The translations under genes were made by a program, and so were the position numbers. Source: Methanobrevibacter sp. (GTDB lineage Archaea; Methanobacteriota; Methanobacteria; Methanobacteriales; Methanobacteriaceae). Taken from it: a stretch of DNA of 64,000 bases. This document shows, piece by piece, positions 3,191-50,458 of this stretch; position 1 is the stretch's first letter, and each line of letters begins with the position of its first letter. The stretch spans positions 1 through 64,000 of the forward strand of contig NZ_JAFQXT010000044.1 in assembly GCF_017406825.1 (NCBI RefSeq), given 5' to 3'. Under the pieces are notes generated by a model. It did no database searches. It was not told the DNA's origin and saw only the letters and a program-made list of their open reading frames with translations.

Positions 3191-4399
3191 ATGAGTTATG
3201 AAGAAAACGCCCGAATAATCAGTGACGACATATTCGATTTGATTAATGAAACTTTCGCCAAAGAAAAAAGTAGTCGAAATAATGAATACAGACTTAATTT
3301 TTTTGATACTTACAGCAATTATTTTGTTTTAACAGATGACGGATCTTATTCTATTAATTCAAAAGAAATAAACCATAAAGTTGAAACGTTGCATACATCT
3401 ACCGGTGCAATAAGTGAGTCATTTGAGAAATTTATCAAGCCGATGAAATTCGATTATTCAAAAGACATCGCCATCCTGGACATATGTGCCGGGCTCGGAT
3501 ATAATTCATCAGCGGCGATAGCTGACTTCATGAAAAACTCAACAAGAAATCTGAAAATAGACATGGTTGAAATATCAAAAGCGACCTTTGCATGCGGACT
3601 TCTGGTGCCATCACCAATACCGGAACATGACATTACCAAAAAAGCCATAGAGAATGAGCTGATTGCACAGGATTACGCAACCCTGAGTCTGGAAACTGCA
3701 GAAATTCCAGAAAACATCAACATTAATGTGTTTATTGAAGATGCAAGGCAAACTGTACAGGGCCTTGAAGACAATGCCTATGATGCAATATTCCTGGACC
3801 CATTCAGCCAGAACATGGCTCCTGAATTATTCTCAGTCGAATTTTTCAAGCAATTCAGACGAATAATCAAGGATGATGGGATAGTTGCAACATACACTTC
3901 ATCGGCACCCGTCAGGGCAGGTTTTATTGAATCCGGCTTTTATATTGGATTGGGTCCGATATTCGGAAGGATGCAGGGCGGAACCCTTGCCAGTCCGAAT
4001 ACTGAAATGCTTGACTGGGCTCTTCCGAAAAACGATGAGATAAGAATAGCATTATCCGACGTGGGAATTCCATTCAGGGACCCTGGTTTAAACAATTCCA
4101 GCGAATACATTTTAGATGCGAGAGCTGAAGAAAGACACACCGCCCGCCACAATACCAAAATCTCATCAGCCGTTAAAACACCAATATTTTTAGGTCAGGA
4201 AATGGATGACGAGAAGCTCAAGAGACGTGTTGAACGCAACCTTGCAAAAATGAATATTCCCTCCACAACATCCCCCGAAGCGAATTATATCGTGGAAGTT
4301 GAAGACGACTACAGTGAAAAACAGGATTCATCAAGCAATTCTACAGATAGAATTCTTGAAATGAAAAAAAGATTAAAAAAAGTAAAGAGGGGAAATTAG
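3191..4399 (+). CDS. MnmC-like methyltransferase-domain protein
   Basis: A 402-residue protein with a SAM-binding core ([13 protein letters not shown] near residue 95) and the sequence [18 protein letters not shown] typical of the MnmC/MnmD family (Methyltransf_30), which in bacteria methylates aminomethyl-uridine at tRNA position 34. The FAD oxidase half of bacterial MnmC is absent. The last 110 residues are a hydrophilic extension ending in a Lys-rich tail. Family assignment is good, but the tRNA substrate is inferred. Its stop codon overlaps that of the convergent adhesin gene. Confidence 0.8.
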
Positions 4400-6267
4400 A
4401 TTCTCACATAATTCCCGCTTTTGAGCAAATAGGCCATATCTTTTGTAGAATCGATTGGTCCATAGATTGATTTTAACTGTTTCGGATTTGAAAGTACATG
4501 TTCTTTACCGAATATGGAATAATCGGCGTCGCAGTTTGCACAGAAAATCGCTCCTTCAACGCTTCCTCCTTCACTGTTTCCGGTTTCCGGGAAAACGCCC
4601 CAGTTAGATGTCTCATCTCCTGCCCAAAAGACACCCCAGTATAACTCATGGCTGCCGCAATGAGGACAGGTTCTTTCGAATTCTACCATATACCATGTAT
4701 AACCATATTTTGACAATTCGCCTGATGCGGATGGTCTGCCGATTGCTAAAATAGTCATTCCATCTTCAGAAACACCATATTGGTCATAAGATATTCCCAT
4801 TCTATCTTCAACTACCGTGATCTTTTTGGTTATTTGATAACCGGTTGTTAAATCTTTACAAACGACATTATATTTGCCGACACCCAATTTGAATTTTACA
4901 GATGCGACACCTTTTGAATTGGTTTTGACCTTATGCACCACGCCGTCAAGTTTGATCTGCACATAAGTATTTTTTGCAACCTGACCGTTCTGATTCAATA
5001 AGGTTATTTCATATGATGAAGCCTGATTGGCGATTGCTCCCATATCATATGCCTTTATTGAAGCCAGATAAACATAAACCTTTTTGCTTATAGTATATTT
5101 AGTATATGGATCAACGGCCTTGAATGTATATGTTCCTTTTGCCAGATTGAATTTGACGGTTGCAACACCATTGGAATTGGTTTTAACTGTCTTTTTAGAA
5201 CCTGCAACATATACAACCATCTTCTTATTCTTTGCCAATGCACCATTCTTCTGATGCAGTGTAACTTCAAATTTAGATGTGACACCGGTGAAAACCTTCA
5301 TTGACTTGGCAGACAAAGGTGATAGAACAGTGATTGTGCTGGTTTTTCTCTCACCGGTATTCTGATTAATTGACTGAATCTTATATGTGCCCGGAGTGGA
5401 GAGAATCTTTAAAGTCGCAACACCATTGGAATTTGTCTTTTTATAATAGGTATATCCTTTGATTTTGAATATGATATATTTCTTCTTGAGAACCTTGCCG
5501 TTGGATCCGTAAAATGTTGCCCTGAACTTTTTGGAACCTAAATAATACTTTTTAAGATTAGAGGCTGTGATTGAGGATTTGACGGTGATTCTATTAGAAA
5601 CCTGATAACCGTTCGGATGGATTGCATATACCACATAACTTCCGGCCTTCAAATCAAGGTCCAGGCTTGCAACACCTTTTGCGTTGGTCTTTTTGGTGTA
5701 GGTCTTTCCTTTTAATTTGAACTTGACATTGGTGTTCTTCAAAGGATTTCCTTTTGAATCCAAAAATGTGGCAGTGTATTTTGCTGAGCCGGAATATGTC
5801 TTGGTTACATCTTTAGCCTTGATAACAGGCAATACCTTAATCTTATTGGTCAAAGTGAGATTTCCAAAAATAGCTGAAATGGTATATGTATCAGGCTTTA
5901 AATCTAAAAGAACAGAAACTTTACCTGATGAATCAGTTGTTTTTAAGTAACTTACCCCATTAAGCTTTAATGTGATATTGGCTCCTTTAACAGGGCCAGT
6001 TCCGTTACGCAATACAACAGAATAACTGGATCCGCCCTTATAATACATGCTTACATCACTGCCGGTCAATGTATAGTTTCCATCACTAACCTGGCTAGTG
6101 GTACTTTCATTAGCGGATAAGACAACTTCCTCTCCCGATGGAGGTTCCTCATCCACTTCACTAGAAATCATGTCATCAGTTGAATTTGAATCAGCAGCAG
6201 CGACCACTGACAGAGACAACATAAAAACTAGAGTAATTAAAATTAAACTAATTTTTTTATTAAACAT
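4396..6267 (-). CDS. Secreted Ig-like repeat protein with zinc-ribbon-like tail
   Basis: An adhesin-like surface protein of 623 residues with an N-terminal signal peptide (MFNKK, a hydrophobic core, then AAAD). It has about five Ig-like repeats, each marked by T-NS-K/N-GVA followed by a beta strand, as in bacterial Ig-like domains of methanogen adhesins. The last 130 residues differ: they hold CPHC and FCANC pairs about 45 residues apart, resembling a zinc ribbon. I chose the ATG at 6265-6267, which follows GGGG by a normal spacing; an ATG seven codons upstream has no clear ribosome site. Attachment is probably by cell-wall interaction, since no C-terminal membrane anchor is seen. Confidence 0.8.
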
Positions 6268-39822: not shown

Positions 39823-39849
39823 AAAAAGAGCATAGTTAAATAACTATGC
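39820..39849 (-). terminator. Terminator of the first solute-binding protein gene
   Basis: GCATAGTTA / TAACTATGC (39830-39838, 39841-39849) with a 2-base loop spans the stop codon of the gene at 39844, followed on the minus strand by T runs (39812-39828). It may also act for the DUF447 gene. Confidence 0.8.
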
Positions 39850-40815
39850 TTCCCAATATAAGTCTTCCTGAGAAACTGTTTGATTTAAAATGCCTAAATC
39901 AACTTCCAATTGTTGGAATGCATCCACATTAGCTTTGTAAGAATCATCTAAACCAAAGATGAATGGGAAACTTTCTAAGGAAACGACTTCCGCTGCTGGG
40001 TCTGCAACAATATCTTCAGGCAACAATTCAACTACAGCATCGGTTTCACCAGCTGCTATTTTTTCATTGATGAATTGAGTTGCTTGTTCGTGAATTGCAA
40101 CAATCTCTTTAGCGGTATCCTCATTATTATCAAGGAAGTCCTGTGATGCTACTACAACACAGCATGGGTGTCCAGGCATGATTTCAGAAGAATCTACTAA
40201 TTCCTCGATATTGTCATCGGTTACTCCAAGACTTACATAAGGTTGGAAAGTAATTGCTGCGGGAAGATTGCCTGTTTTTAAAGCGTCATTGATGGATGGA
40301 ACTTTCATTGCAGATTCATTGATGTCATCCAAAGACATTCCATTATCGTTCAAGTATGCTGCAAGCAATACGTGCTGAATGGATGCTTCACCAGGAGTTG
40401 CAATGGTTTTACCTGCCAAATCACTTGCACCTTCAATATCGGAGTCATCGGTTACGATAATTCCACTACCTTCCACTTGAGCAGCAGAAATAACTTTTAC
40501 AGGTACGCCAGCAGAAACAGAGGATAATACCGGAGCGATTCCGACATAACCAACATCAACATCACCGCTAGCCATAGCAGTCATCAAATCTCCACCATTG
40601 TTAAATTGAACAAGTTCAGTGGAAATATTCTTTTCTTCGTATAGTCCTTGTGCGTCCGCTACAAATAATGCGGCATCATGGTCTGAAGGCAAATAGCCTA
40701 TTTTTACGGTGTCATCTCCCCCTCCCAAAAAGTCAAAGAGGCCTGCACTGGCAGAACCCATTACGAGAAATGCTGCGAGTGCCAACACTAAAATAAATGT
40801 AATCTTTTTATTCAT
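39844..40815 (-). CDS. Solute-binding protein, NitT/TauT/SsuA type (copy 1)
   Basis: A 323-residue extracellular binding protein with a signal peptide (residues 1-25, LVMGSASAG). It has the GYLPSDHDAALFVADAQGLYEEKNI start and the NNGGDLMTAMASGDVDVGYVGIAPVLSS block seen in nitrate, taurine and sulfonate binders. The GHPCCVVVASQDF motif has adjacent cysteines. It has no permease or ATPase nearby, and a close paralogue lies just upstream. Coenzyme M or other sulfonate uptake is a plausible substrate guess only. A GGTGAA ribosome site is present. Confidence 0.88.
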   Translation of the reverse strand: MNKKITFILVLALAAFLVMGSASAGLFDFLGGGDDTVKIGYLPSDHDAALFVADAQGLYEEKNISTELVQFNNGGDLMTAMASGDVDVGYVGIAPVLSSVSAGVPVKVISAAQVEGSGIIVTDDSDIEGASDLAGKTIATPGEASIQHVLLAAYLNDNGMSLDDINESAMKVPSINDALKTGNLPAAITFQPYVSLGVTDDNIEELVDSSEIMPGHPCCVVVASQDFLDNNEDTAKEIVAIHEQATQFINEKIAAGETDAVVELLPEDIVADPAAEVVSLESFPFIFGLDDSYKANVDAFQQLEVDLGILNQTVSQEDLYWEA

Positions 40816-40900
40816 TCTTTCACCAATTAAATAATTTAAATTATTTACAATTATTAATATTTACAAGTATGCTATAAATATATATCTTCATTAACTTGAT

Positions 40901-40912
40901 TAACAATTGTTA
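40901..40912. promoter_or_regulatory. Palindromic motif in front of solute-binding gene 1
   Basis: TAACAATTGTTA, a perfect 12-bp palindrome followed by TATTTTGA. The same ACAATTGTTATATT core recurs upstream of larE and of the amidohydrolase operon, so it may be a shared operator. Confidence 0.45.
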
Positions 40913-40963
40913 TATTTTGAATCCCTTGTTACTAGTTAATCATACAAACTATTTAAAGATTAT

Positions 40964-42683: not shown

Positions 42684-42721
42684 TATGGAAAAAATAACTA
42701 TTGTTATATTATTTTTCCATA
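42684..42721. repeat. Inverted repeat carrying the shared palindromic motif
   Basis: 10-bp arms TATGGAAAAA / TTTTTCCATA (42684-42693, 42712-42721) enclose TAACTATTGTTATATTA. The core matches the motif before solute-binding gene 1 with one change. It sits about 120 bases upstream of larE and could act as an operator or a hairpin. Confidence 0.45.
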
Positions 42722-42838: not shown

Positions 42839-43846
42839 ATGAACTTAGAAGATAAAATTAATATTGTAAAAGACATTTTGAAAGACAAAAATATTGCTAT
42901 TGGTTTTTCCGGTGGCGCTGATTCAACATTAATCACCTATTTATCTTCTAAAGTTGCAAAAGACACATTGGCCATCACAATCGATAATCATATATTCCCT
43001 ACAGGATTTGTTGAGAATGCAAAAAGAACCTGTGAAACATTCCAAGTAAAACATGAAATAATAGACATTGACTTCTATGAGGAGGAGAATCTCTTATCCA
43101 ATAGTCAGAAAAGATGTTTCACATGCCGTGACATGATGTATTCGACAATTGAAAAGATAGCCCGTGAAAAAGGTTTCGACTTCATTTGTGACGGCAACAA
43201 TATTAGCGATCTGGTAGCCGACAGGCCAGGTATCCTAATAACCTATGAAAAAGGTTTTGAAACACCGTTCATCAAAGCTAAATTAACCTCCAAGGAGATT
43301 CATGAATACCTTGATGAACATAACATACCCTATTCAAGGTCAACCACATGTCTTGCAACCAGAATCCCCACAAATACCAGAATAACTGATGAAAAAATAA
43401 AAAAAATCAGATATTGTGAAGATTATATTTTAGACAAGACTAACTGCGAAATCGTGAAAGTTAGGGATTTGGAAGAGAATGGTATTGTTGAAGTTGATGA
43501 TGTTAATGAAATACTGAAAGACAATGCATTTAAACAGATTGACGATGAATTAAAATGTCAAGGTTTTGATAAAGTCGTTTTAAATTTATCGCAAATCGAT
43601 GATAATGAATACATCAGTATCGACTATTCGGACGGATTATTTTCATATCAACTTCCGTTTACCATAAACCTTGAAAATACAAAAATGCAACTGAGTGAAA
43701 TTGACTTTGAGTCCGGTGAAAAAATCCGGTCAGATAAAATCACAATCCATGCAAGCGGATTGATTGAAGGCGATGACCTGGAAACATATGATGCAGCACT
43801 GGACACATTTATGGAAATACTGCCGAAACTTAGAAGGAACATTTAG
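42839..43846 (+). CDS. larE: LarE-like sulfur transferase with three conserved cysteines
   Basis: A 335-residue PP-loop enzyme of the LarE family, which puts sulfur into the nickel-pincer precursor in lactate-racemase cofactor synthesis. The ATP loop is SGGADS at residues 24-29. Cys93 and Cys96 (CFTC) plus Cys171 (STTCLATR) give the three-Cys pattern of LarE forms with a [4Fe-4S] cluster, while the L. plantarum type gives up its own Cys sulfur. The C-terminal 70-80 residues go beyond the usual length. LarB and LarC are not in this window. It is co-transcribed with the ThiF-like gene (9 bases apart). Confidence 0.88.
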   Translation: MNLEDKINIVKDILKDKNIAIGFSGGADSTLITYLSSKVAKDTLAITIDNHIFPTGFVENAKRTCETFQVKHEIIDIDFYEEENLLSNSQKRCFTCRDMMYSTIEKIAREKGFDFICDGNNISDLVADRPGILITYEKGFETPFIKAKLTSKEIHEYLDEHNIPYSRSTTCLATRIPTNTRITDEKIKKIRYCEDYILDKTNCEIVKVRDLEENGIVEVDDVNEILKDNAFKQIDDELKCQGFDKVVLNLSQIDDNEYISIDYSDGLFSYQLPFTINLENTKMQLSEIDFESGEKIRSDKITIHASGLIEGDDLETYDAALDTFMEILPKLRRNI

Positions 43847-45947: not shown

Positions 45948-46778
45948 CTATTTTTCGAGATTGATCCGTTCTGGAGCGGTATAAACTGTAAATCTGTTGC
46001 CCCTTACAAAACCAACCATCGTAATATTTCCTGCACGGGCCACATCAATACCTGATGATGCAGGTGCCGCATTAGAGATGATTATTGGAATTCCAACTCT
46101 TATCACCTTAATTAACATGTCCGCAGGCATTCTTCCACTATAAGAAATATAGCATCTTGAAAAATCATACCCCTCTTTTGCAGCAGCCCCAATTACCTTA
46201 TCGACAGCAACATGGCGACTTACATCTTCACGGATGATAATATCATCTTCATATTTTAATTGAGCAACGTGAACTCCTGCTGTTTTCTGCCAGATTTTTG
46301 CCTCGTCAGTCAAATGCTGAATATCCTTAATGATTTGAGTTGCATCAATACTTAAGTCTGATGTGTTGGGCTCGATTGTCTTCAACTCTGACCGGATTCC
46401 TCCGGCATTATCGGAATTCACTCCCTGATATTCCAAAAGTCTGCAGACACAGGCATGCTCACAGTTTCCCTTCCTTTCCTGAACAATACCTTCCTGTTCC
46501 AAATCCTCTTCAGGGTCATGATTGAGATATGTGGATATCAAAACATTAGTTCCATCCAATTCTATTGATTTAATGTCTTGATAATCCTTAATCAAACCTT
46601 CACCCAAACAGTATCCGATTGCAAAATCTTCCAGATTCTTTGGATATGTTGAAAACTTGCGGGGAGGCAGATAATCAATGAATAGATATGTATATTCATC
46701 ATCAACACTGTTTTCATAAATTGTTTTGTATTTTCCATCCTTCCATTGTATAACTTCTGTTTGTCTTAAGAAGTCCGT
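45948..46778 (-). CDS. fdhD: Formate dehydrogenase accessory sulfurtransferase FdhD, non-ATG start
   Basis: FdhD passes sulfur to the molybdopterin cofactor of formate dehydrogenase. The frame opens after the preceding gene's stop with GGTGATATT directly followed by ACG (46776-46778), exactly where ATG stands in neighbouring genes. From there 276 residues match full-length FdhD, including LEDFAIGYCLGEG. The first standard start in frame is TTG at 46607, which would remove the conserved N-terminal 57 residues. Later motifs are a cysteine cluster (about residues 106-112), REDVSRHVAVDKVIG and SGRMPADMLIK. ACG use is an inference; a point mutation or a sequencing error is also possible. Confidence 0.8.
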   Translation of the reverse strand, partial: TDFLRQTEVIQWKDGKYKTIYENSVDDEYTYLFIDYLPPRKFSTYPKNLEDFAIGYCLGEGLIKDYQDIKSIELDGTNVLISTYLNHDPEEDLEQEGIVQERKGNCEHACVCRLLEYQGVNSDNAGGIRSELKTIEPNTSDLSIDATQIIKDIQHLTDEAKIWQKTAGVHVAQLKYEDDIIIREDVSRHVAVDKVIGAAAKEGYDFSRCYISYSGRMPADMLIKVIRVGIPIIISNAAPASSGIDVARAGNITMVGFVRGNRFTVYTAPERINLEK

Positions 46779-46786
46779 AATATCAC

Positions 46787-48175
46787 CTATTTTCCTGCCA
46801 AAGCAATGTTTAAATATTTCTTCAATTCATCACATTCATCAGGATCAACATTTTTTAGACTGCTGATGCTTGTCTGCTTATTGTTTTTTGACAATTCAAC
46901 ATGAGCATTGATGTATCCCTTTTCCTTAATCAATTTTAAAAGTCGTTTCCCGTATGTCAAATCGGAATTTGAAATACGGTTGAGCATTAGGCTTAATGTA
47001 TGCTCTTCTTCAATTCCCAATACTTCACACATGCCATACATTTCATTTATAATTTCTGCAGCCCAGCTTTGAAGTGTTACCTCTTGGCCATCCCTAAGCA
47101 GTCTCATTGATTCGACGTAAGCCGTTTCAGCTGTTGCCTCCTCATTGAATTTGGCCTCTTTCTGCCAATCATTATAATCGGACTCCTCTTTAATGAACAT
47201 GTATATCAAGAACAGATGCAGGAATTTCATATCCTGCCTTACAAGTCCGCATTGGTAAAATGGATTGATATCTAAAGTCCTTATCTCGATATATTCAACA
47301 CCTTCTTTTTCAAGGGAGTTCAACATGTCCTGAGGATTTTTCGGCTTCAGTCTAATCTGGGTGTACAGCTCTTTAGCTTCTGACAAGTCACCATCCTCAA
47401 TGAATCTGTTTACATCACTGACAAATTCATTTACAGAATTATAAGATGGATACAAATCCTTTAAGTTCTTATATCCGCATGAAGCATTTCTAAATGAAGG
47501 TCCTCTTGTTGAGTAGAAACTTCCATAATCGTCCTTTTCATCCATCAGGTGAATGCAATCATTAGAGAAGGTCTTATGTGAACCTATGGAACATCCTGTC
47601 AGATAAATGATTAACCAGCAATATCTTATGTAATTTCTGGCAATCTTTAGATAAACATTATTTTTAAACTCCTTGAAAGTCAAATCGGAGTTTTCAATAT
47701 CATATAACCTGTTCAGGAAATCGTCTGAAAATGAAAAATTAAAATGAACCCCTGAAATCATTTGTTTTTTGACACCGTATTTTTTTGCCAGGTCTTCGCG
47801 ATACCTTTGAGAAGCATGCCCCTCTTCAGAATATCTGGCAATCGGAATCTGATCCCAATATGGTAAAATACATGGAATGGACTGGAACCACAGATATTCG
47901 TCTTCAGGAAGTGATGCATTTACAATATCGGACAATAGTGAAAAATTATCAAATGCCTTGTCTATTGAGTCGAAAGTCGGAGTTATGATTTCAATTTGAC
48001 TTTCTGAAAAATCAGTGGTTACAACAGGATTTGCCAGTTTATCTCCGAATACTTCGGGATGTGGAGTTAATGATAATTTTCCATCGCCTTTTGCTCTTAA
48101 GCTCTCCCATTCTATTCCAAATGAACCGGCCAATATTTCATCTGCAGATAATTTTGATAAGTTTAATAGATTCAT
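46787..48175 (-). CDS. GshA/GshF-like glutamate-cysteine ligase
   Basis: A 462-residue member of the type 1 glutamate-cysteine ligase family. The N-terminal FGIEWESLR is at residues 19-27, followed by LTPHPEVFGDKL, TTDFSESQIEIITPTFDS, the QSIPCILP block and QMISGVHFNFSF, close to the N-terminal half of Firmicutes GshF. The ATP-grasp half that makes glutathione is missing. It would make gamma-glutamylcysteine or a related amide. Transfer from bacteria is likely. It lies between the GCS2-like gene (24 bases) and fdhD. Confidence 0.88.
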   Translation of the reverse strand: MNLLNLSKLSADEILAGSFGIEWESLRAKGDGKLSLTPHPEVFGDKLANPVVTTDFSESQIEIITPTFDSIDKAFDNFSLLSDIVNASLPEDEYLWFQSIPCILPYWDQIPIARYSEEGHASQRYREDLAKKYGVKKQMISGVHFNFSFSDDFLNRLYDIENSDLTFKEFKNNVYLKIARNYIRYCWLIIYLTGCSIGSHKTFSNDCIHLMDEKDDYGSFYSTRGPSFRNASCGYKNLKDLYPSYNSVNEFVSDVNRFIEDGDLSEAKELYTQIRLKPKNPQDMLNSLEKEGVEYIEIRTLDINPFYQCGLVRQDMKFLHLFLIYMFIKEESDYNDWQKEAKFNEEATAETAYVESMRLLRDGQEVTLQSWAAEIINEMYGMCEVLGIEEEHTLSLMLNRISNSDLTYGKRLLKLIKEKGYINAHVELSKNNKQTSISSLKNVDPDECDELKKYLNIALAGK

Positions 48176-48199
48176 TTCTCCCCTCCAAAGCCAATGCTT

Positions 48200-49591
48200 T
48201 TATTCTAATTCACCATAATCTTTAATTATATTTTCCAATTTCATCCCATTATGCATTGACGTAATTATGTCTTTTCCCGGATTGCTGTGCTGTTTAATTC
48301 TGTCATATAACGGATTTAAGAAAACTTCCTCGCCAATTCCCCTTTCATTCAGTCCATCATTTGCCAAATCAACGACATCCTTGGTTAATTTACATAACTC
48401 ATTTTTATCAATGAAAACTGGAATTTCATCCTGTATCAACAATTTTCTAAGTTCTCCTGCCGTATATCCGTTGTGATAAATAATATTATCATCATTAATT
48501 AATTCTTCAATTTCATCTAATTTTTCTTTAAGGCCTAAATGAAATGCTGCAACAGACATGGAGTCCCTTATCGGCTGAGTGCATACGCTTCTAAATTCCA
48601 CTGTACCTCTGAATGTTAAATTGATGAATTTGAATGGTCTTAAATATTTAATATCTTTAATGCAGGGTTTTATTTCAATTTCCCTGTATTCACCATTACA
48701 GTATATCTCCCCACAAACAAAATCCTTTTTAAAGTATTCCAAAAGATTCATTGACGGGAAATTTATATATGCTCCATCACGCATTACACAGTAAATATTT
48801 AAGGATTCCAAATATGCCTGCAGGTCTTCAAGGTTTTTAAAGTCCACATCATACATTCCGATATTGTGGGGATTAATGCCGTGAGTCGAATATTCCCATA
48901 AAGCGTCTCTAAAGCAGGTCACATGCTTATTTTCATCAACCAGAACCGAATTTGAAAACAACAATGCTTTGATAGGTTCGATTTTTGAAAATATGTTTAT
49001 GGTTTTGACCAGCTCCTCCCTATAAACATCCAACTGAACCTGTGATGCGGATGAAAACATCCCATATTCAGGATACCCATGAAAATACATCGGAATATCC
49101 CTATAGTTTTTGAAAGATTTTAAATGATGATAAAGCATCAGATATCTTTCAGATGGAATCGGGTGATTTTTATTATACTTCCTGTATGGATTGATGCCCA
49201 TTCCAGTTAATGTGTGATTAAACTGCTCAAAACATTCTTTTGTAAATGCATAATAATCACAAAAACGATCATGTATGGAAAATAGGTCCTTTTCTCTTCC
49301 CATTGCAAATTCTATGTTATTATAGGAGCAGTCATAACAGAAAATGTCATCATTATTGTTGTTTTTAAGAGAAAAAACATTTCCGTCATAATCAATGCCA
49401 TCTTCCTTAAAATCAGGAAATTGCTTTTGAAACCTATCGGTCACCTTATGAACAACATCAAAATCGACCGCCGTTTTATCGAGATTGATAATGGGAATTT
49501 CGATTTCTATACCTATGAAGTTCTTTTTCTGCTCTGTTGGCTTTATGAATTCATCATATAATTTATTTCTCACAGTTTCCTCATCAATCAT
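48200..49591 (-). CDS. GCS2/EgtA-like carboxylate-amine ligase
   Basis: A 463-residue protein of the second glutamate-cysteine ligase family (GCS2, as in EgtA and plant enzymes): IGIEIEIPIINLDK near residue 23, FCYDCSYNNIEFAMG near 83, and FSSASQVQLDVYREE near 183. It is not related closely to the neighbouring GshA-like gene, so the operon holds two different ligase families. I chose the ATG at 49589-49591 after AGGTTGAT; a TTG three codons earlier is in frame. The start overlaps the amidohydrolase stop by 8 bases. Confidence 0.85.
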   Translation of the reverse strand: MIDEETVRNKLYDEFIKPTEQKKNFIGIEIEIPIINLDKTAVDFDVVHKVTDRFQKQFPDFKEDGIDYDGNVFSLKNNNNDDIFCYDCSYNNIEFAMGREKDLFSIHDRFCDYYAFTKECFEQFNHTLTGMGINPYRKYNKNHPIPSERYLMLYHHLKSFKNYRDIPMYFHGYPEYGMFSSASQVQLDVYREELVKTINIFSKIEPIKALLFSNSVLVDENKHVTCFRDALWEYSTHGINPHNIGMYDVDFKNLEDLQAYLESLNIYCVMRDGAYINFPSMNLLEYFKKDFVCGEIYCNGEYREIEIKPCIKDIKYLRPFKFINLTFRGTVEFRSVCTQPIRDSMSVAAFHLGLKEKLDEIEELINDDNIIYHNGYTAGELRKLLIQDEIPVFIDKNELCKLTKDVVDLANDGLNERGIGEEVFLNPLYDRIKQHSNPGKDIITSMHNGMKLENIIKDYGELE

Positions 49592-50381
49592 TATTATCAA
49601 CCTGATTAATTGATTTTAAAAAGTCTTCAATAGCTTTTTCATGTTCTTCAGTCAATATGAACTCGTTTTGATGTTTTTCGCTTTCAAAAATTATATTTCC
49701 ATCAATCAAAGCGAATAGCTTATTCAACTCCACCGGTTTCCATTCTTCATCATCGGTCAATGGAGTTGAAGCGACAAGAAAACCTTCATCATTTTTCAGA
49801 TAATATAGCGAATCCCTCATATTTGAATGGATATAAGTTAAATCACCATCATAAATCATTAGATTGACCTTGTTATTTTTAGATAAGTCAACGATGAGTT
49901 GGTTCAATAGATTAAATCTCTCCTTTATTGTGGATAATCCTCCTTTGTTTTTTTCAAACTCGTTAACTTTATCTATGATGTATAAGAGTATCCTCTCTGA
50001 ATCAGTGTCGCCGTTTTCCTTATCTTTGTATTCATTGAGCTTCGGATAATCGAATATTGTCCCGTTATGTATCAGCATCCATGATCTGTTATTGTCATCG
50101 GCTTCAATGAAAGGGTGGCAATTTGGAGATATGATTTCCCCTACGGTGGCCAGCCTGATATGGGCAAACACGTTTTTTCCTATAATAGGATGAGATAATA
50201 TATCTTTTAAGTGTTGGCTACATGTTGCTTTTATTGGTTCCTTATTTATAACAAATTCATTGGATTGCATAGTGGCTAATCCCCATCCGTGCGGATGTTC
50301 TTCAGAGTGATTATAAAAACATTCCAGACACTTATTTATTTGTTTTGGCGTATTTGAATTAAAACAAAAAATTTCACACAT
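49584..50381 (-). CDS. EgtC/Dug3-like class II glutamine amidotransferase
   Basis: A 265-residue stand-alone Ntn glutaminase-fold protein. The N-terminal Cys2 after Met is the expected nucleophile (MCEIF), followed by HPHGWGLA, FAHIRLATVGE, a HPF segment, IHNGTIFDY and GDTDSERIL. EgtC hydrolyses the gamma-glutamyl group of an ergothioneine intermediate, and Dug3 takes part in glutathione breakdown, so a gamma-glutamyl-bond role fits the two ligases behind it. It is first in the operon, with a strong GGAGGG ribosome site unlike the usual GGTGA. Confidence 0.85.
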   Translation of the reverse strand: MCEIFCFNSNTPKQINKCLECFYNHSEEHPHGWGLATMQSNEFVINKEPIKATCSQHLKDILSHPIIGKNVFAHIRLATVGEIISPNCHPFIEADDNNRSWMLIHNGTIFDYPKLNEYKDKENGDTDSERILLYIIDKVNEFEKNKGGLSTIKERFNLLNQLIVDLSKNNKVNLMIYDGDLTYIHSNMRDSLYYLKNDEGFLVASTPLTDDEEWKPVELNKLFALIDGNIIFESEKHQNEFILTEEHEKAIEDFLKSINQVDNND

Positions 50382-50403: not shown

Positions 50404-50427
50404 TATCACAATTGTTATATTGTGATA
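50404..50427. promoter_or_regulatory. Operator-like inverted repeat of the amidohydrolase-ligase operon
   Basis: 8-bp arms TATCACAA / TTGTGATA with an 8-base spacer, overlapping a copy of ACAATTGTTATATT. It lies just upstream of the ribosome site and near the expected transcription start, where a repressor would block initiation. Confidence 0.55.
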
Positions 50428-50450
50428 GGTATTGTTTTATAATTAATGTT

Positions 50451-50458
50451 ATATAAAC
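50451..50458 (-). promoter_or_regulatory. TATA box of the amidohydrolase-ligase operon
   Basis: The minus strand reads GTTTATAT, about 25-30 bases upstream of the operator centre and about 70 bases upstream of the start codon. Confidence 0.5.

Follow-up and report, generated by a model that had tools for sequence, protein, structure and literature searches.

Introduction

Haloarchaea possess a gamma-glutamylcysteine system without glutathione synthetase, comprising GshA, as in Haloferax, and a bis-gamma-glutamylcystine reductase (PMC7278568). The ergothioneine enzymes EgtA and EgtC pair a GCS2-family ligase with an N-terminal nucleophile (Ntn) amidohydrolase that removes gamma-glutamyl, and the Dug2-Dug3 system for glutathione degradation in yeast uses a class II glutamine amidotransferase-fold enzyme to cleave the gamma-glutamyl-cysteinyl bond. 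GshF (GshAB) of Lactobacillales, Fusobacteria and Pasteurellaceae consists of a ligase half and an ATP-grasp synthetase half. Here, a locus related to these systems is described from Methanobrevibacter sp. (assembly GCF_017406825.1). It is an operon-like group of three tightly packed open reading frames (ORFs) at 46787-50381 on the minus strand of the window, i.e. the whole stretch of 64,000 nucleotides that was analysed (positions 1 to 64,000 of contig NZ_JAFQXT010000044.1), encoding a class II amidohydrolase (AmH), a divergent ligase with the fold of plant glutamate-cysteine ligase (GCL; hereafter GCS2-like ligase) and a stand-alone GshA. Based on the comparisons presented below, the probable role of the trio is to form and split gamma-glutamylcysteine, or a closely related derivative, which would serve as a thiol or as a buffer of cysteine.

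The locus differs from each of its described counterparts. Compared with the haloarchaeal system, the methanogen GshA is a GshF-derived PF04262 protein, the operon adds a GCS2-fold ligase and a predicted gamma-glutamyl hydrolase and shares an operator-like motif with cysK, and no reductase was identified. Unlike EgtA/EgtC, the set comes without an EgtD partner, its hydrolase scores far under the EgtC cut-off and its promoter motif is common to cysteine synthase. As opposed to the Dug2-Dug3 arrangement, AmH pairs with ligases instead; the gene maps showed no recurrent Dug2-like peptidase next to the module, no genome-wide search for one having been made. The window GshA is related most closely to the ligase half of GshF, but the methanogen gene ends after the ligase and lacks the ATP-grasp half.

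The trio bears on the question of which small thiol, other than coenzymes M and B, methanogens use to buffer redox and cysteine. According to the 2020 review 'Redox and Thiols in Archaea' (PMC7278568), GshA homologues occur in Methanosphaera and Methanobrevibacter, and gamma-glutamylcysteine without glutathione was argued from them. A preliminary description of the locus, made from the sequence alone, had suggested a thiol system new for this group; given that proposal, a gamma-glutamyl thiol in these archaea is not a wholly new idea. The subject is not discussed in the M. ruminantium genome paper. Neither the pair of GCS2-like ligase and AmH nor the module of three genes, its mobility or its operator was found in a paper, which is weak evidence of absence, as most subscription papers lay outside the search. 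Within the literature searched, the module as a whole, its movement and its putative regulon with an operator motif are new. The patchy presence of the trio among close relatives, together with an operator common to cysteine synthase, makes the thiol question directly testable, and in rumen and gut methanogens the buffering of cysteine or redox state could matter for niche and oxygen tolerance.

Gene organisation and protein families

The three ORFs agree with the preliminary description, which had reported adjacent same-strand genes with overlapping or closely spaced ends. AmH (49584-50381, minus strand, 265 aa) is followed by the GCS2-like gene (48200-49600, minus strand), which measures 466 aa from a TTG at 49600 or 463 aa from an ATG at 49591. 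The latter is the probable start, and counted from it the overlap with the end of AmH is 8 nt. GshA (46787-48175, minus strand, 462 aa) starts after a gap of 24 nt. Among the first 22 relatives in which the GCS2-like gene is full-length, the order AmH-GCS2 was kept in all 22 and GshA came next in 20, which supports the proposed operon as a conserved unit. The families assigned to the three proteins at that stage (amidohydrolase, GCS2-type ligase and GshA/GshF-like ligase) were likewise recovered by profile and fold comparisons.

AmH matches Pfam GATase_4 with an E-value of 2.4e-32 and begins with Met-Cys2. Its AlphaFold2 model (pLDDT 89.6) is nearest to 1te5 and to EgtC (4zfj/4zfk/4zfl), with TM scores of 0.62-0.77, followed by GlmS and PurF. 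Against the EgtC equivalog model TIGR03442 it reaches 68.2 bits, below the cut-off of 218.65. Cys2, Arg76, Asn106, Gly107 and Asp127 are invariant in 16 of 16 diverse sequences and align with positions of GlmS-type enzymes that are assigned, in this family, to the nucleophile and the glutamate-binding residues. By these features (N-terminal Cys nucleophile, glutamate-binding Arg/Asn/Gly/Asp), AmH is a predicted class II Ntn gamma-glutamyl hydrolase with an EgtC-like fold. A degraded copy with many stops lies beside an intact GshA in another genome (G097:C55:23254-23930), where no GCS2-like gene was found.

The second protein is more divergent. Pfam GCS2 gives no match to the window protein and only a sub-threshold 15.9 bits (threshold 21) to one relative, while TIGR01436, the model of plant-type glutamate-cysteine ligase, matches with an E-value of 2.2e-10 and 39.6 bits, far under its cut-off of 463. 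Profile comparison with the plant GCL structures 6gmo/2gwc yields an E-value of 3e-15, and the AlphaFold2 model (pLDDT 79.5) has plant GCL 2gwc as its best match in the PDB (TM 0.72/0.77, E 6e-14), with glutamine synthetase (GS) entries among the weaker ones. As modelled, the fold is that of the plant-type GCL/GCS2 superfamily, of which the protein would be a divergent member. Gln187, Asp191, Arg231, Arg331, Glu335 and Arg337 are invariant across the relatives; Glu32 is kept by all full-length sequences, and Glu34 and Glu97 by all except one. At 18-19% identity, cysteine is a putative acceptor. One bacterial homologue, an alphaproteobacterial GCL with 24% identity, was found among the plasmids that made up the bacterial search, and neither a viral contig scan nor a wider set of 396 archaeal genomes returned a relative, or an additional close relative, respectively. 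In one locus (L072, 6589-8030, genome G079) the gene is split into two overlapping ORFs, probably by a frameshift.

GshA is the clearest of the three, matching PF04262 with an E-value of 2.2e-91 and 306.7 bits (cut-off 27). The GshF model PRK02471 gives 404.8 bits, just under its cut-off of 425, with the match spanning the ligase half only, and identity to Ilyobacter GshF is 46%. Ten residues (Glu22, Glu24, Asp55, Glu62, His144, Asn146, Arg229, Arg275, Glu297 and Arg299) are invariant in 49 sequences including bacterial GshA/GshF, with which Glu58 is also shared; the set would include the metal- and substrate-binding residues of the family. The catalytic residues of both ligases, whose loss would have spoken against the activities proposed in the preliminary description, are thus intact in the alignments.

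In a tree, the 36 sampled methanogen GshA sequences form one clade (100/100) within the GshF ligase halves, adjoining Ligilactobacillus salivarius and next Ilyobacter. The resemblance to GshF that had been noted earlier is therefore borne out, and the topology fits one early gain of a GshF-like gene with loss of its second half, followed by loss and transfer within the family. Long branches and a bacterial sample of plasmid-borne GshA/GshF only limit this reading of the origin. A gain in the gut, also suggested earlier, is weakly supported: the clade lies beside GshF of gut Lactobacillaceae and of Fusobacteria, but in that same plasmid-only sample.

Distribution and co-occurrence

Next, 152 genomes of the phylum were searched with profiles of all three proteins. 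The GCS2-like ligase was found in 78, GshA in 85 and AmH, as a strong match, in 81. The two ligases are confined to the window's own family, Methanobacteriaceae, where the genes are widespread and not peculiar to this strain, a restriction that would have counted against the preliminary description; AmH has weak matches beyond the family. A genome contig scan with one protein of the trio returned two Methanobrevibacter loci only, and a viral contig scan with AmH one distant match.

Placed on a GltX tree of 110 Methanobacteriaceae, 59 genomes have all three genes and 35 have none. GCS2 and AmH changed in the same way in 13.5 of 18 independent pairs and never in opposite ways (p 1e-4), AmH and GshA in 10.7 of 15 (p 1e-3), and GshA and GCS2 in 10 of 14 (p 0.002). 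Missing contigs as the sole cause of this co-occurrence were considered using the genomes that are at least 90% complete; as the same directions hold there (p 0.004-0.03), this explanation was set aside.

AmH is never found without a ligase (0 of 68 AmH-bearing genomes), but its partner varies. GshA is the only partner of six AmH genes and GCS2 that of twelve; in two of the latter twelve genomes, GshA lies elsewhere or is missing. On the starred branches of the AmH tree there are at least five label changes for AmH-GshA pairs and at least five for GCS2-only pairs, and in two genomes (G104 and G089) each ligase has an AmH copy of its own next to it. This partner exchange is read as one type of hydrolase serving two interchangeable ligases, and repeated label changes are what would be expected if both ligases feed the same hydrolase. 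In one further genome (G078), a second AmH-GCS2 pair was set aside as likely assembly contamination: AmH, the GCS2-like gene and a GSHPx gene stand at the same coordinates in G078:C61 and G150:C3, although the two genomes belong to different genera.

Maps of about 75 loci place the module at several different chromosomal sites, so its cohesion is not just that of a frozen neighbourhood. Judged from these patterns, the trio looks like a portable, co-regulated module that has repeatedly been lost or moved. The genome closest to that of the window by GltX (G015, 94% identity) has none of the three genes and no GSHPx gene, meaning that the module was gained or lost between near relatives.

An operator-like motif shared with cysteine genes

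A 14-bp palindrome, ATAACAATTGTTAT, stands upstream of AmH, often as two copies about 20 bp apart. In the window it reads ATAACAATTGTGAT (50405-50418, minus strand) and is part of a 9-bp inverted repeat at 50404-50427, downstream of a probable TATA box of the operon, TTTATATA (50450-50457, minus strand, read by eye). Outside the Methanosphaera-like genus g26, the motif was found, allowing at most one mismatch, in 44 of 47 AmH loci, compared to 11 of 689 promoters of unrelated control genes in the same loci. It stays with AmH despite the several chromosomal sites of the module, and where GshA lies apart from AmH (G014), GshA has a copy of its own.

As a further check, a search for cysK in the genus returned 30 loci, whose promoters were inspected for the motif. 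All but one (29/30) contain it, mostly with a second imperfect copy (Fisher p 1.5e-41 versus the control genes). An operator common to cysK suggests that the trio is wired into cysteine and sulfur metabolism, which backs the link to thiol metabolism made in the preliminary description. Judged by eye, the copies follow the TATA-like box and precede the start in the AmH promoter, but lie upstream of the TATA-like box in that of cysK. Because of this difference in position, one might speculate that a regulator acts with opposite sign on the two genes.

A scan of five whole genomes (G000, G029, G014, G079 and G034) revealed copies upstream of cysK, metY, moaE, larE, thiI, rubrerythrin, molybdate permease and SsuA-like substrate-binding protein (SBP) genes. 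As a reversed-pattern control gave 6-13 sites per genome against 6-19 real ones, some of the single sites are due to chance. In G034, from which all three genes are absent, there is no overall enrichment (6 real versus 13 reversed sites). The motif nevertheless still precedes metY, cysK and fdhD there, and the regulon may thus predate the module. The tandem palindrome looks like the mark of a cysteine/sulfur regulon (cysK, metY, larE, moaE, thiI, SsuA-like SBPs and the trio) that is apparently undescribed; no archaeal cysteine regulon with a matching operator was found in the literature searched. Two more copies occur in the window: one at 42694-42707 upstream of larE (42839-43846, plus strand; LarE by TIGR00268), and one, found as a motif match, at 40900-40913 upstream of an SsuA/TauA-like SBP gene (39844-40815, minus strand; SsuA family TIGR01728, E 4.8e-43, below cut-off).

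Predicted function and alternative explanations

In the proposed pathway, GshA would use ATP to join cysteine to the gamma-carboxyl of glutamate, and the GCS2-like ligase would perform the same coupling, redundantly or under other conditions. AmH would then cut the gamma-glutamyl bond to give glutamate and cysteine or, alternatively, strip gamma-glutamyl from a cysteinyl derivative. Gamma-glutamylcysteine could thereby serve the cell as a protected store from which cysteine is released, under the tuning of an operator that would also control cysteine synthase. The conserved catalytic residues of the ligases and the gamma-glutamyl-binding residues of AmH count in favour of this. Since the module is apparently able to join and split cysteine and glutamate and its operator matches that of cysK, a glutathione-like thiol may act as the cysteine buffer of these archaea. 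Much of the overall interpretation in the preliminary description (families, operon, lack of EgtD and of the GshF synthetase half, GshF origin, thiol link) is retained, the wholly novel thiol and the gain in the gut being its weaker parts.

Several points weigh against a gamma-glutamylcysteine cycle. An early survey (1985), as cited in PMC7278568, reported neither gamma-glutamylcysteine nor glutathione in five unidentified methanogens. The activities and the product are predictions from sequence and models. The absences come from draft assemblies, and an assembly that misses a contig loses adjacent genes jointly, inflating co-absence. The cysK promoters are orthologous, so that 29 of 30 do not represent 29 independent observations, and the motif is absent in genus g26, where GshA is usually unlinked. 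Finally, two ligases for one product look wasteful, and the GCS2-like enzyme may therefore use another acceptor. There is some chance, albeit a limited one, that the ligases work in series or on different acceptors and yield a gamma-glutamyl-cysteinyl compound that no organism is known to make, a low-molecular-weight thiol and cysteine reserve of Methanobacteriaceae that would be charged and discharged under a cysteine-responsive regulator.

If the second acceptor were not cysteine, the GCS2-like ligase and AmH could work as a pair of their own, adding gamma-glutamyl to another amine and removing it again in a protecting-group or scavenging cycle, as in gamma-glutamyl-putrescine use, leaving only GshA concerned with cysteine. 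AmH and GCS2 are indeed the tightest pair in the co-change tests, GCS2 occurs without GshA in 6 of 78 GCS2-bearing genomes, the ligase is too divergent for Pfam GCS2, and an Amidoligase_2 gene next to GATase_4 on a phage contig hints at a general make-and-cleave theme. However, the promoter of the pair carries the operator common to cysK, AmH is kept with GshA alone in six loci, and no conserved amine-metabolism gene was seen nearby in the gene maps. A separate amine pathway is thus considered unlikely.

AmH could also be a glutaminase subunit passing ammonia to the GCS2-fold enzyme, the two forming a glutamine-dependent amide synthetase. It is usual for class II amidotransferases to supply a synthetase with ammonia, and GS, which uses ammonia, has a fold distantly related to that of GCS, in keeping with the GS entries among the weaker matches of the latter. 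Such a complex is nonetheless improbable, as the hydrolase EgtC and the stand-alone 1te5 come ahead of GlmS and PurF among the structures nearest to AmH, which moreover also pairs with the cysteine ligase GshA where GCS2 is absent.

Alternatively, full glutathione might be made, with an unrecognised synthetase finishing it. GshB-like proteins occur next to GshA-like genes in some Methanobacterium (PMC7278568). GSHPx genes, present in 81 of the 152 genomes, tend to co-occur with the module, although this linkage is weaker than that within the trio: co-change of GSHPx and AmH has a p of about 0.03 over all genomes and, without significance, of 0.06-0.13 among the genomes that are at least 90% complete. 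The genes directly upstream of AmH in genus g26 are GSHPx and a flavodoxin-like gene, the latter by eye (L073, L074, L080, L133, L136 and L137). Glutathione peroxidase (GPx) family proteins often use thioredoxin, so their presence does not imply glutathione. As had been anticipated from the window, the GshF synthetase domain PF18419 was found in none of the 152 genomes (0/152), while a control genome matched, and no ATP-grasp gene was noticed beside the trio in the gene maps. Glutathione as the product is accordingly very doubtful. The g26 loci also have a Sir2-like gene nearby (by eye) and, in some, a cation-efflux-like gene.

That AmH and the GCS2-like ligase are a remnant or variant of the ergothioneine pathway is hardly credible. 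EgtA does belong to the GCS2-family ligases, and the fold of EgtC closely matches that of AmH, but besides the low EgtC score noted above, the histidine methyltransferase EgtD (PF10017), partner of the sulfoxide synthase EgtB and likewise not seen in the preliminary description, is above cut-off in 0 of 152 genomes, that of the window included, with E. coli and Methanosarcina acetivorans matching as controls. The production and hydrolysis of gamma-glutamylcysteine thus stays the preferred reading of the trio.

Neighbouring genes and related gene pairs

Directly after GshA lies fdhD (45948-46784, minus strand), encoding a formate dehydrogenase accessory sulfurtransferase (TIGR00129, E 9.9e-51). 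It follows GshA within about 50 bp or less in 11 related loci according to the gene maps, but sits away from it in others, and is treated as co-located or co-regulated. FdhD as a pathway step was set aside for this reason; the SBP genes were weighed as possible pathway members alongside it. In the window, the fdhD frame is open as far as the GshA stop, with no ATG, GTG or TTG upstream of the TTG at 46607. About 55-60 conserved N-terminal residues are thus left without a canonical start, reflecting an unusual start, a point mutation or a sequencing error.

Analogous gene pairs were seen on mobile elements. A phage contig (L086, IMGVR_UViG_3300031463_000450, 3290-5810) carries Amidoligase_2 followed by GATase_4, an analogous ligase-hydrolase pair. 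On the Thermococcus barophilus plasmid pTBMP1 (L087, 5001-7257), GATase_4 is directly followed by GGACT (gamma-glutamylcyclotransferase) and an ADP-ribosylglycohydrolase. As in the methanogens, a ligase-fold or gamma-glutamyl enzyme thus stands beside GATase_4; in contrast, the ligase family is another one and the genes are on a phage contig or plasmid, whereas the methanogen module belongs to a putative chromosomal cysteine regulon. A plasmid of Lactiplantibacillus plantarum (L262, 1438-3656) carries a stand-alone glutamate-cysteine ligase beside a gene of the gamma-glutamyl-GABA hydrolase family.

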